A DNA stretch of 64,000 nt, taken from contig NZ_CP035130.1 in NCBI RefSeq assembly GCF_004101785.1, positions 372,001-436,000 on the forward strand. Direction: 5' to 3'. The notes below the pieces were generated by a model. That model saw only the letters and a list, made by a program, of their open reading frames with translations, ran no database searches and was not told the DNA's origin. Position 1 is the first letter of the stretch, and each line of letters opens with the position of its first letter. This document shows, one piece after another, positions 25,016 through 49,477 of this stretch. This DNA comes from Gudongella oleilytica. GTDB taxonomy: Bacteria > Bacillota > Clostridia > Tissierellales > Tissierellaceae. Made by a program: the position numbers and the translations under genes.

Positions 25016-25044
25016 TTGACATCGAACATGTGTTCTGCTATATT
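25016..25044 (+). promoter_or_regulatory. Strong promoter of the ComK-like gene
   Basis: A perfect TTGACA (25016-25021) and TATATT (25039-25044) have a 17-bp spacer. The spacer is almost entirely filled by a LexA-type box. Confidence 0.85.
25023..25036 (+). promoter_or_regulatory. SOS (LexA) box within the promoter spacer
   Basis: CGAACATGTGTTCT matches the Gram-positive LexA consensus CGAACRNRYGTTYC at 13 of 14 positions, missing only the last base. Its place between -35 and -10 is a classical repression position. The half-sites GAACA and TGTTC are perfectly inverted around TG. Confidence 0.75.
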
Positions 25045-25117: not shown

Positions 25118-25687
25118 ATGGAATGGATCGAACAGGATATTCTGGCCATTCTTCCAACCTACAGGGGTGACAAGGGCAATTGCACGCTCATTCTGGTGGA
25201 GGATGGTCAGCAAATCATTGAAAGAACTGTAAAAACCGTGATAAAGAAAATCTGTAAGCATAACCACATAGACCTTAAAGCAGCCAATGAAACCTATGGA
25301 GGCCTGCTGAACCTTAAGACCAATATCCCTTTGGTCATCTCGCCAGAGAGGATATTTATACAGCTTAAGGCAAGGGAGCCTGTGGGAAAGGACGATGGAG
25401 CTATGGGATATTTCAAGCTGGGAGGTATAGATGAGGTAATAGAAAGAGAAGGAGGAGCGATAATTCGGTTCAAAAACAAAACCGAGATAGACTGTCTCTG
25501 TTCAGCTGACAATGCGAGAAATCAGATTTCCAAGGGAAAGCTGGCCAAAGAGCTCTACGGAACCGTAAGGACACAATCAGTCCAGGAAAGCCTTGAATAC
25601 TACCACAGCAAGGACGGGCCTGCTATGAAATCTGACATAGCGAGACTCTACATGAAGCTTGATGACCTGCTTCTAAAGCTTGGATAA
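25118..25687 (+). CDS. ComK-like putative transcription factor
   Basis: A 189-residue soluble protein without TM segments. The order of features parallels ComK: a short N-terminal strand region (ILPTYRGDKGNCTLILVEDG), a conserved-type turn ETYGGLLNLK (ComK proteins have SSYAGRKAGT there), PLVISPERIFIQL (ComK PIMVDPSNQIFLFP), a hydrophobic MGYFKLGGIDEV (ComK CGWISHVHV) and IIRFKNKTEIDCLCSADNARNQISK (ComK VTFSNGKTMELPISYNSFENQV; shown in parts, not aligned by program). Family length is about 190. If correct, it is a minor-groove DNA-binding activator. It has its own promoter with an SOS box and a terminator. The assignment rests on pattern memory, so it is moderate. Confidence 0.5.
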   Translation: MEWIEQDILAILPTYRGDKGNCTLILVEDGQQIIERTVKTVIKKICKHNHIDLKAANETYGGLLNLKTNIPLVISPERIFIQLKAREPVGKDDGAMGYFKLGGIDEVIEREGGAIIRFKNKTEIDCLCSADNARNQISKGKLAKELYGTVRTQSVQESLEYYHSKDGPAMKSDIARLYMKLDDLLLKLG

Positions 25688-25701
25688 GACCAGGTCGGCA
25701 A

Positions 25702-25730
25702 CCCAGCAATTACTGCTGGGCTTTTTTATT
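25702..25730 (+). terminator. Terminator after the ComK-like gene
   Basis: CCCAGCA (25702-25708) pairs with TGCTGGG (25714-25720) and is followed by CTTTTTTATTT. Confidence 0.88.
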
Positions 25731-25781
25731 TCTGCAGGGTTTGTTGTATCATTGCCTTACCGGTAATTCAAGGGAAGGCGC

Positions 25782-25798
25782 CTCTCCCAAAGGGAGAG
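25782..25798 (+). promoter_or_regulatory. Hairpin that covers the ribosome binding site of the sigma factor gene
   Basis: CTCTCCC (25782-25788) pairs perfectly with GGGAGAG (25792-25798) over an AAA loop. The 3' arm is the Shine-Dalgarno of the sigma factor gene (ATG at 25804), so translation should be low unless the hairpin is opened. Confidence 0.55.
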
Positions 25799-25803
25799 TA
25801 AAT

Positions 25804-26367
25804 ATGGTAAAAGAAGTAGAGCAGTTGGCAGATGAGGCAAGATCAGGAAAAATGGAGAGCCTGGAGGAGCTGATAGACAGGATGTACCCGCTGCTTTCAT
25901 CCTGTATAAGAAAGGGCGGCTGGAATCCGCAGGAAAGAGAGGATCTGCTTCAGGAGGGAAGACTTAGACTGATGGAGGCACTAAAGGAGTACGATCCTGA
26001 AAAAGGAGTTCCTGTGCTTGGATTTTTAAGCTCAAGGCTAAGGTACCTTTATCTTGGTATGAAGCGACCACAGGCCGTAATGTCTCTAAATGAAAGCTAT
26101 GGTGAGGATGAGGATGAGTTTCTGGATCTTTTGGAGTCGGATATTGACATCCTTGAGGATATAATTGGAGACGAAACCATAAGAGAAGTAAGAAAAGCGG
26201 TTTCATCCCTTCCGGAGGTCCAGCAAAGAGTCATAGTGGATCTTTTCTACAACGGCTTGTCTCTTTCAGAGACAGCGAGTATCAACGGCGTTGCCTACAG
26301 GACAGTCGTAAACACTCGTACAGCCGCGCTTAAAAATCTAAGGAATATATTGGGGGATGTAAGATGA
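25804..26367 (+). CDS. Sigma-70 family sigma factor (alternative, regions 2 and 4)
   Basis: A 187-residue sigma factor. Region 2 spans about residues 18-80 with REDLLQEGRLRLMEALKEYD (core binding), and region 4 spans about 130-185 with SLPEVQQRVIVDLFYNGLSL and the helix-turn-helix ETASINGVAYRTVVNTRTAA. Between them is an acidic linker (GEDEDEFLDLLESD). This two-region layout suits ECF-like, competence SigH-like or UviA/BotR-like factors; which group is undecided. The ATG at 25804 lies after GGGAGAG. Its stop overlaps the amidase start (ATGA), so the two are co-translated. No anti-sigma gene is adjacent. Confidence 0.82.
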   Translation: MVKEVEQLADEARSGKMESLEELIDRMYPLLSSCIRKGGWNPQEREDLLQEGRLRLMEALKEYDPEKGVPVLGFLSSRLRYLYLGMKRPQAVMSLNESYGEDEDEFLDLLESDIDILEDIIGDETIREVRKAVSSLPEVQQRVIVDLFYNGLSLSETASINGVAYRTVVNTRTAALKNLRNILGDVR

Positions 26368-26834
26368 TAACCAAGAAGCTTATAGGATATAACTACTCAG
26401 GCAGAAATGGGGAAGCCATAAAGTATATAGTAGTGCATGACACAGGGAATCCCTCAAGGGGAGCCGGAGCGGAGAATCATTGCCTGTATTTCAATAAACC
26501 GGGCAGAAATGCTTCAGCCCATTACCTTGTGGACAGCAGGGAGACACTTCAGCTTGTCGAGGACCATAACTCGGCATGGCACTGTGGGGACGGAAAAGGA
26601 AGATTCGGGATCACCAATAGAAATTCCATTGGTATCGAGCTGTGCATAAATATAGATGGAGACTGGGAGCTTACTAAGAAGCGTGGAATAGACCTGATCC
26701 GTTATTTGCTTATGAAGCATGATCTTCCAAAGGACAGGGTAGTCAGGCACTATGATGCAAGTCTCAAGAATTGTCCCGGGAAAATGTCGGCAATGGGCTG
26801 GAGGGAATGGACCAGATTCTATGATGAAATCTGA
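26364..26834 (+). CDS. N-acetylmuramoyl-L-alanine amidase (Amidase_2, endolysin type)
   Basis: A 156-residue zinc amidase cleaving the MurNAc-L-Ala bond of peptidoglycan. It shows KYIVVHDTGNPSRGAG (first His ligand, about residue 25), SAHYLVDSRETLQLV, AWHCGDGKGRFGITNRNSIG (about 71-90) and RHYDASLKNCPGKM (last His and Cys ligands, near residue 130). There is no signal peptide and no cell-wall-binding domain, so it resembles a bare phage endolysin that would act after lysis or through a holin. It overlaps the sigma factor gene by 4 nt. No holin or other phage gene is adjacent. Confidence 0.88.
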   Translation: MITKKLIGYNYSGRNGEAIKYIVVHDTGNPSRGAGAENHCLYFNKPGRNASAHYLVDSRETLQLVEDHNSAWHCGDGKGRFGITNRNSIGIELCINIDGDWELTKKRGIDLIRYLLMKHDLPKDRVVRHYDASLKNCPGKMSAMGWREWTRFYDEI

Positions 26835-26892
26835 ATTAAAACGACCTCCTTGGGTATATAAATCAAAGACCAAGCAAAAGGAGGAAGATCGG

Positions 26893-27360
26893 ATGGACAT
26901 AAACGAAGTGATCAAGGATATAGCCGAGAATCACCATGGGTATCTCAAGCAGGAGATGCCGGTGATAAAGGAGATGGCCAACAAGATACTGAAGGTACAT
27001 TATAAGGATTGCCACGAGGAGCTTATCAAGGTCCACAGAGCATACGGAAAAGTAGAGAATGAACTTGAGCTTCAATTAGTCAAGAAGCAGCTCGTAGTTT
27101 TGCCGCTGATCCGGGAATACAACAAAAATGGAGACAGAGCTTTACTGGATGAAATAAGGCTTGCAGTCGAGGATGTTGAAAAGGACAATGATATCCTGCT
27201 GGAAGCCTTCGATGAGCTAAGAAGTGCAACTAATAATTACACCATGCCGCCAAGCGGCTGCCAGACATACAATACAACCTACAGGAAGATGGAAAAGCTG
27301 GAGGAGGAATCAAAAGCATATCTCGAGCTTGAAAGAAAAATGTATAAGGAAATACTCTAA
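26893..27360 (+). CDS. RIC/YtfE/ScdA-like hemerythrin-fold protein with lost metal ligands
   Basis: A 155-residue helical protein that follows the RIC (di-iron iron-sulfur cluster repair) pattern: ENHHGYLKQEMPVIKEMANK, KILKVHYKDCHEEL, LQLVKKQLVVLPLI and LRSATNNYTMPPSGCQTYN all align by eye with YtfE/ScdA. However, the ligand positions expected as His-Leu-x-Lys-Glu are Gln61-Leu-Val-Lys-Lys65, the Glu-His-Asp region has Asn99, and the last ligand pair has Tyr143 instead of His (Glu147 kept). Only the first two His sites (H14/H15, H36) remain. It also lacks the N-terminal ScdA_N domain. A di-iron centre is therefore unlikely. The ATG at 26893 follows AAGGAGG. Confidence 0.65.
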   Translation: MDINEVIKDIAENHHGYLKQEMPVIKEMANKILKVHYKDCHEELIKVHRAYGKVENELELQLVKKQLVVLPLIREYNKNGDRALLDEIRLAVEDVEKDNDILLEAFDELRSATNNYTMPPSGCQTYNTTYRKMEKLEEESKAYLELERKMYKEIL

Positions 27361-27385
27361 TGAGCGTACATCGCTCATTTTTTTT
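27360..27385 (+). terminator. Terminator after the RIC-like gene
   Basis: ATGAGCG (27360-27366, sharing the last base of the stop codon) pairs with CGCTCAT (27372-27378), followed by a run of T. Confidence 0.9.
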
Positions 27386-45211: not shown

Positions 45212-45625
45212 CTATTTAACTATCATCACTGTCGTTTTCGCGTGCTGGATAACCTTATGGGAGACACTGCCCAGGATCGTCCTTGAAAATACCCCTAAAC
45301 CTCTGCTTCCCATTACGATCAGGTCATAGCTGCCGTTTTCTGCATACCTTATGATCTCCTCAGCAACGTCTCCTATAATATGAGCTGTATCCACATTTCC
45401 TGCATAGCCCTCGAACATTTTCTTTGACTGCTCAAGGAGCTGCTTACTTAAGTCGATGCCGTCTCTGACAACGTCGAATTTGTAATCCATATCCAGATAC
45501 CTTATGCTGTCAATGACTGTTAGGATCGTTACATCTGCAAGAAATGCTTCTGCAATCTCCCTGGCTTTAAGCAATGCCCTAGTGGACCACTCAGAGCCAT
45601 CGATTGGAACAAGTATTTTTTTCAT
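45212..45625 (-). CDS. Universal stress protein (UspA family), copy 1
   Basis: A 137-residue single-domain Usp. It starts MKKILVPIDGSEWSTRALLK and ends with the ATP-binding motif VMGSRGLGVFSRTILGSVSHKVIQHA (shown from about residue 106; G-x2-G-x9-G-S), so it is of the ATP-binding type. The start lies after AGGGGGTG. It has a near relative in the same orientation at 48946-49356. Usp proteins are induced by starvation or stress; the partner here may be the adjacent transporter, which is only context. Confidence 0.9.
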   Translation of the reverse strand: MKKILVPIDGSEWSTRALLKAREIAEAFLADVTILTVIDSIRYLDMDYKFDVVRDGIDLSKQLLEQSKKMFEGYAGNVDTAHIIGDVAEEIIRYAENGSYDLIVMGSRGLGVFSRTILGSVSHKVIQHAKTTVMIVK

Positions 45626-48945: not shown

Positions 48946-49356
48946 CTATTTAACTACGAAAACCGATGTATTCACATGTGTTACGACCTTGTGGGACACG
49001 CCTCCCAAAAGTGCTCTTGTGAACACTCCCAGACCTCTGCTCCCCATAACTACAAGGTCAAACTTGTTGTCCTCTGCCATTGCAATGATCTCATTTGCTA
49101 TGTCGCCCATCCTGTATGTGGTTTTAACTCCGTGGGGGTAACCCTCAAGAGTCAGCGCAGACTTGTGCAGTAGCTCCTGCCCCGCTTCAATGCTTGCGTT
49201 GATCATGTCCTGCTTGAAATCTACGCTTACAAAGCGACCGCTGTCAATTACTGTTAGAAGTGTAAGCTCTGCCTTGTAAAATTCACCAAGCTCTTTTGCT
49301 TTTTGTAGAGCCTTCATTGAATAATCTGATCCGTCAACTGGAACCAGGATTTTCAT
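48946..49356 (-). CDS. Universal stress protein (UspA family), copy 2
   Basis: A 136-residue Usp starting MKILVPVDGSDYSMKALQKA and carrying VMGSRGLGVFTRALLGGVSH near the C-terminus, the ATP-binding G-x2-G-x9-G pattern. It is clearly paralogous to 45212-45625. The ATG at 49356 lies 8 nt after AGGAGG; a GTG at 49365 overlaps that site. The two copies bracket the glyoxalase/M20/amidohydrolase genes and face the same way. Confidence 0.9.
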   Translation of the reverse strand: MKILVPVDGSDYSMKALQKAKELGEFYKAELTLLTVIDSGRFVSVDFKQDMINASIEAGQELLHKSALTLEGYPHGVKTTYRMGDIANEIIAMAEDNKFDLVVMGSRGLGVFTRALLGGVSHKVVTHVNTSVFVVK

Positions 49357-49477
49357 ATTTCGCACCTCCTGTACTTAAAATACATTTACAGCATTAGCCT
49401 TTTCTTAATAATCATATACCCATAAAATGCCTTTCAAACGTTATTTAAATCAAATTTTTCACAAAAAAAGGAGGGGG

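Follow-up and report, generated by a model that had tools for sequence, protein, structure and literature searches.

A single-domain RIC-type protein of Gudongella oleilytica with four of the six di-iron ligands replaced

On the forward strand of the window (the whole 64,000-nt stretch of DNA that was analysed), a short gene that follows genes for a ComK-like regulator, a sigma factor and an amidase encodes a hemerythrin-like protein, which we refer to as pseudo-RIC. The genes and signals at the locus are:

25118-25687, forward strand: ComK-like regulator (context gene)
25804-26367, forward strand: sigma-70-family factor, 187 aa, overlapping the amidase gene by 4 nt
26364-26834, forward strand: Amidase_2 peptidoglycan amidase, 156 aa, upstream of pseudo-RIC throughout the genus (4/4 genomes)
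26852-26857, forward strand: GGGTAT upstream element, a possible -10 of a sigma-B-type promoter
26880-26884, forward strand: ribosome binding site GGAGG (from the sequence)
26893-27360, forward strand: pseudo-RIC coding sequence, 155 aa, a single hemerythrin-like domain without ScdA_N (by homology and AlphaFold/Foldseek)
27359-27379, forward strand: intrinsic terminator, directly 3' of the pseudo-RIC stop codon

The reading frame at 26893-27360 is a real gene. It starts with ATG downstream of the GGAGG, and in three congeners (L033, L034 and L035) the gene is likewise preceded by AGGAGG or AAGGAG and followed by a hairpin with T-rich stretches. The Rfam search gave no RNA element, and the pseudo-RIC protein had no match in PADLOC or PHROGs.

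Nothing in the neighbouring genes suggests a partner. The sigma-amidase pair precedes pseudo-RIC in every genome of the genus. We considered pseudo-RIC as a partner, e.g. an anti-sigma factor, of the adjacent sigma-amidase pair, but this link is weak because the ComK-like/sigma/amidase block occurs without pseudo-RIC in genus g11, because the short RICs of genera g4 and g9 sit elsewhere, and because pseudo-RIC has its own upstream element. The block has several features of its own. A LexA-type box, GAACATGTGTTCT (25024-25036; region 25016-25044), lies between the -35 TTGACA and the -10 TATATT of the ComK-like gene and is kept in 7/7 genomes of g1 and g11 examined; the same motif is also found 5' of uvrB and of a Y-family polymerase gene in this genome. 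An SOS-controlled ComK-like regulator looks unusual. A terminator-like hairpin (25702-25720) separates the ComK-like gene from the sigma gene, and the spacer 5' of the latter (25741-25803) carries a conserved ACCTAGGAATAA-like sequence, present at the same place in L034, L035 and L140-L142, and after it a short palindrome (either GGCGCC or AGAGCGCTCT); this spacer is possibly an autoregulatory promoter or operator. Of the 28 genomes of the family, 23 have the ComK-like regulator and 27 a related sigma factor, often side by side (window 25118-26367; L140-L150), and in two genera a phage-endolysin-like amidase (phrog_670) accompanies them. At another locus (L162, G000:C1:501000-503500), frames 5' of a metK-like gene contain repeated GSPPRVRGT, ITPACAGNT and DHPRVCGEH peptides, a pattern characteristic of a CRISPR array translated as if it were coding sequence.

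The initial annotation described the protein as RIC/YtfE-like, and our searches agree. TIGR03652 (FeS_repair_RIC) matches it with E 2.2e-26 over model positions 67-208, at 93 bits and thus under the equivalog cut-off of 204.7, and phmmer finds the solved structures of YtfE and ScdA across the whole hemerythrin domain (E 3e-7 to 8e-6); the Hemerythrin HHE domain (PF01814) scores 17.6 bits, below its gathering cut-off of 25.3. The ScdA_N domain with its CC motif, which most bacterial RICs possess, is missing, the TIGR03652 match beginning only at model position 67. This domain is not strictly defining for RICs, since the RIC of Neisseria gonorrhoeae lacks it too and yet holds two irons (PMC9268430). 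The AlphaFold model, for which an alignment of the window and locus sequences served as input, consists of four long helices (pLDDT 95.1, pTM 0.89). Foldseek against the PDB gives the S. aureus RIC/ScdA structure 9r7j as the best match (TM 0.91, rmsd 1.5 A), TM values of 0.82-0.88 to YtfE entries and, at E<0.001, no fold other than RIC structures. A RIC-type four-helix bundle is predicted to be kept, in agreement with the earlier view that the protein retained its frame, and membership of another helical family finds no counterpart among these matches. A Pfam match to the IraP anti-adaptor (E 0.012) was judged to be coiled-coil noise.

In YtfE, H84 and H204 bind Fe1, H129 and H160 bind Fe2, and E133 and E208 form the bridges (PMC9268430; PMC8117158), with the spacing H84(x44)H129(x3)E133(x26)H160(x43)H204(x3)E208 (PMC8117158); a stable, working centre reportedly depends on all six of them (PMC8117158 citing Nobre 2015). 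Aligned to YtfE, the window protein keeps two of these six ligands, H15 and E147. The relevant codons are:

26935-26937, forward strand: His15, equivalent to YtfE H84, Fe1 ligand, retained
26998-27000, forward strand: His36, equivalent to H105, second shell, kept
27073-27075, forward strand: Gln61, equivalent to H129, Fe2 ligand, lost; Gln, Ser or Ala across the genus
27085-27087, forward strand: Lys65, equivalent to E133, bridging ligand, lost; all four genomes of the genus have Lys here
27187-27189, forward strand: Asn99, equivalent to H160, Fe2 ligand, lost; the sister genera have lost H160 too
27319-27321, forward strand: Tyr143, equivalent to H204, Fe1 ligand, lost; Tyr in 4/4, convergent in three proteins of family f6
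27331-27333, forward strand: Glu147, equivalent to E208, bridging ligand, retained

The four substituted positions are exactly those named in the initial annotation. The ligands are not merely shifted: order and spacing follow YtfE, small loop indels aside, and the genus alignment contains no conserved new His or Glu one turn from any lost ligand. As read from the alignment, the Fe2 site lacks both its His ligands and one bridge, and the Fe1 site lacks one His and the same bridge. Superposition combined with the alignment places the substituted residues along the former metal pocket of the model. Other YtfE-equivalent residues are kept (E125, K132 and the conserved P...GC.TY loop). Judged by its sequence, the protein is a RIC descendant without the defining set of six ligands, and a di-iron repair annotation should therefore be avoided for it.

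Among the four genomes of the genus, the ligand strings are HQKNYE (window), HSKNYE, HAKNYE and HAKNYE, i.e. the three orthologues (60-67% identity) carry Ser, Ala and Ala at the H129 position, and K65, N99 and Y143 are fixed in all four; HHEHHE, by comparison, is found in 61/61 full-length RICs sampled. Recurrence of the pattern in four genomes, against intact ligands in all these full-length RICs, rules out chance or sequencing error. The genus orthologues share 76/155 invariant residues at 60-78% identity, and dN/dS amounts to 0.03 and 0.08 in the only two comparisons giving values, dS being saturated in all; these comparisons indicate that pseudo-RIC is under purifying selection in the genus. 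H36, P119, C123 and E147 are invariant in alignment A1 (66 sequences), and H15 is kept in >90% of it. Considering only positions at which at least 80% of other RICs have one residue, all four genus proteins are changed at 61, 65, 66 and 143, and also at 50, 133, 150-152 and 154; many of these changes thus fall at the former metal site. The single-contig genome of the window and each of the three congeners contain one RIC match only, and a search of the window genome for a canonical RIC paralogue found none. Descent from RICs, a preserved fold, purifying selection and the replacement of four of the six ligands together argue for a function without the normal di-iron centre, and, since related bacteria share the changes, for a protein that is probably working but repurposed.

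In the tree, the short proteins without ScdA_N from the window's family (genera g1, g4 and g9) group as one clade (support 100), next to a canonical RIC of family f9. The short RICs of g4 and g9 have lost H160 alone (replaced by N, A or T), and in the window's genus H129, E133 and H204 have been lost on a long branch of about 0.9-1.1 changes per site. The tree and the ligand patterns show a stepwise loss: within the RIC (YtfE/ScdA) lineage, ScdA_N and H160 went first, in common with the sister genera, and H129, E133 and H204 later, in the window's genus. A second clade of short RICs is found in family f6, where every member has lost H160 and the other ligands are lost variably. A single origin of all ligand-poor short RICs was rejected (p-AU 0.006, ligand columns excluded). 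In the 22 full-length short proteins of both clades, H160 is present in none (0/22) and E208 in all (22/22), and H204 has changed to Tyr in both clades. The f6 proteins (L042-L046, L049, L050, L080-L087) show independent ligand losses, e.g. HREEYE, NHEIKE and HIKYNE. Absence of ScdA_N is not by itself enough to account for the missing ligands, because the short RICs of L092 and L093 and one in L094 keep all six ligands and the N. gonorrhoeae RIC keeps its irons. At L095 (G144:C1:1599402-1600019), a second RIC copy with two in-frame stops lies near an intact copy and is apparently a pseudogene.

GGGTAT precedes 11/11 short RIC genes of the window's family, 36-78 nt 5' of the start codon and in differing gene neighbourhoods; shuffling gave an expectation of 0.8 and a maximum of 4 in 500 shuffles, compared with the 11 observed. 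It agrees in 5/6 bases with the -10 of the C. difficile sigma-B consensus WGWTT-N13-17-(G/T)GGTWA (PMC7494833), and in g4 and g9 most of the elements have a GRNTAA-like hexamer 13 nt before them, an arrangement that resembles sigma-B promoters; in the window's genus the -35 box is weak. The window genome also encodes, in a row, a STAS protein, a 122-aa RsbW-like protein (assigned by position; no Pfam match) and a sigma factor. Sigma-B control of the pseudo-RIC gene is nevertheless stated as tentative, because GTTT-N15-GGGTAT was not enriched in a genome scan (5 matches versus 8 in the control). The window contains 46 GGGTAT in total, mostly intragenic; two on the reverse strand (45671 and 49421) lie just 5' of universal stress protein genes (45212-45625 and 48946-49365). 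An FNR/HcpR-like palindrome, TTGAYNNNNRTCA (box consensus from PMC1274295), was found upstream of 15/15 f6 short RIC genes and 22/61 canonical RIC genes, but of 0/11 short RIC genes in the window's family. The parallel f6 family, likewise ligand-poor, thus retains a box characteristic of genes for nitrosative stress, and some redox function may have survived, a point against the reading favoured below.

Taken together, we favour, with a probability of roughly 60%, the reading that pseudo-RIC is made under stress, is incapable of di-iron assembly and acts as a metal-free bundle via protein contacts. The successive losses would leave no bridged di-iron centre, which is needed for iron donation or nitrite reduction, and the four-helix bundle would persist without metals. 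Homology suggests that Lys65, at the place of the old bridging Glu, pairs with Glu147 inside the old pocket, and that H15, Y143, N99 and Q61 line the pocket around this pair. Expression under general stress would start from the gene's own GGGTAT promoter, possibly under sigma-B, and the protein, rather than being an enzyme, would serve proteins that were once partners of RIC as their adaptor or regulator. The regulatory role proposed in the initial annotation is plausible, as a candidate only.

The earlier statement that the metal centre was lost holds for the di-iron site, of which four of six ligands are gone, and less firmly for a single ion. In the E159L variant, YtfE holds one iron on H84, H204 and E208 (PMC8117158), and H15, Y143 and E147 are the counterparts of this set, so one metal ion could still be bound. 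We regard as rather unlikely the resulting alternative, the main rival, in which one Fe or Zn sits on H15/Y143/E147, with Lys65 replacing the second iron, and the protein serves in sensing or handling metal or redox state. At the H204 position, Tyr, which could act as a metal ligand, is fixed in 4/4 genomes and arose independently in f6 (HREEYE: L045, L049, L083), each gain being accompanied by a basic residue where a ligand used to be, and the strong conservation of E147 and H15 in alignment A1 also fits bound metal. Lys65, however, would adjoin E147 and could neutralise it, and H84 is also lost in several f6 relatives (N or Y). Moreover, Tyr binds Fe3+ well but Fe2+ poorly, and the gene content of the relatives suggests anaerobes. 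Equally doubtful to us is the idea that the pocket of single-domain RICs was rebuilt twice, independently, into a stress sensor, the Fe2 half being dismantled and given a basic residue (Lys at E133 in the window's genus, Arg at H129 in part of f6) and the Fe1 half becoming His-Tyr-Glu, with either one metal bound or a Lys/Tyr site that is free of metal, in the manner of class Ie R2.

That the gene is simply decaying, its constraint relaxed once RIC was unneeded and caught before its loss, seems very improbable. The long branch to the genus, the successive loss of ligands and the relatives in other families that are broken or split by stops (the second copy in G144; G124) would fit such decay, but the reading frame, ribosome binding site, GGGTAT and terminator are kept in 4/4 genomes, dN/dS is low where estimable, and the substituted residues are themselves fixed. 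Hardly credible is a di-iron site with alternative ligands (Asn99, Gln61 and the nearby Asp98, Glu57 and Glu59), for although E57 (=E125) and D98 (=E159) are genus-invariant and sit where the iron exit channel used to be, a Lys occupies the bridging position, three His are lost and YtfE reportedly needs its full ligand set (PMC8117158 citing Nobre 2015).

RICs are textbook examples of di-iron proteins, and it is debated whether they truly act as iron donors or as nitrite reductases. The ordered loss of ligands, twice, with fold, upstream element and constraint kept, suggests that part of RIC function is iron-independent, and natural separation-of-function variants are on offer, from loss of H160 only to loss of four ligands. 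It also calls for caution, as the products of genes with a di-iron repair annotation in these bacteria may be unable to bind iron.

Our literature search for ligand-less hemerythrin-like proteins found no papers, and the closest known systems are the following. With E. coli YtfE and S. aureus ScdA the window protein shares the RIC-type four-helix bundle (TM 0.87-0.91 to most entries) and the residues at H84, H105, E208, E125, K132 and the P...GC.TY loop; it differs from them in lacking ScdA_N, in its four replaced ligands, in its low identity (18-22% in the structural alignment) and in having GGGTAT upstream instead of an FNR/HcpR-like box. The RIC of N. gonorrhoeae, or DnrN (NF041614), is likewise a single-domain RIC without ScdA_N but, unlike the window protein, still has its two irons. 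Class Ie ribonucleotide reductase R2 (QSK/VPK) is a helical di-metal protein that lost its metals through Gln, Ser or Lys at ligand positions and is still functional (PMC11846895); it belongs to an unrelated family and is a catalytic radical protein, so that the likeness is one of analogy only. Trichomonas vaginalis RIC2 was isolated iron-free, binds DNA and is in part nuclear (PMC9268430). It carries a signal peptide and a leucine zipper, and a normal RIC1 occurs alongside it, whereas the window protein has no added domain and no canonical RIC beside it in the genome searched; as a RIC paralogue isolated without iron, however, RIC2 is a precedent for an iron-free RIC, of which the window protein may, by analogy, be another variant.
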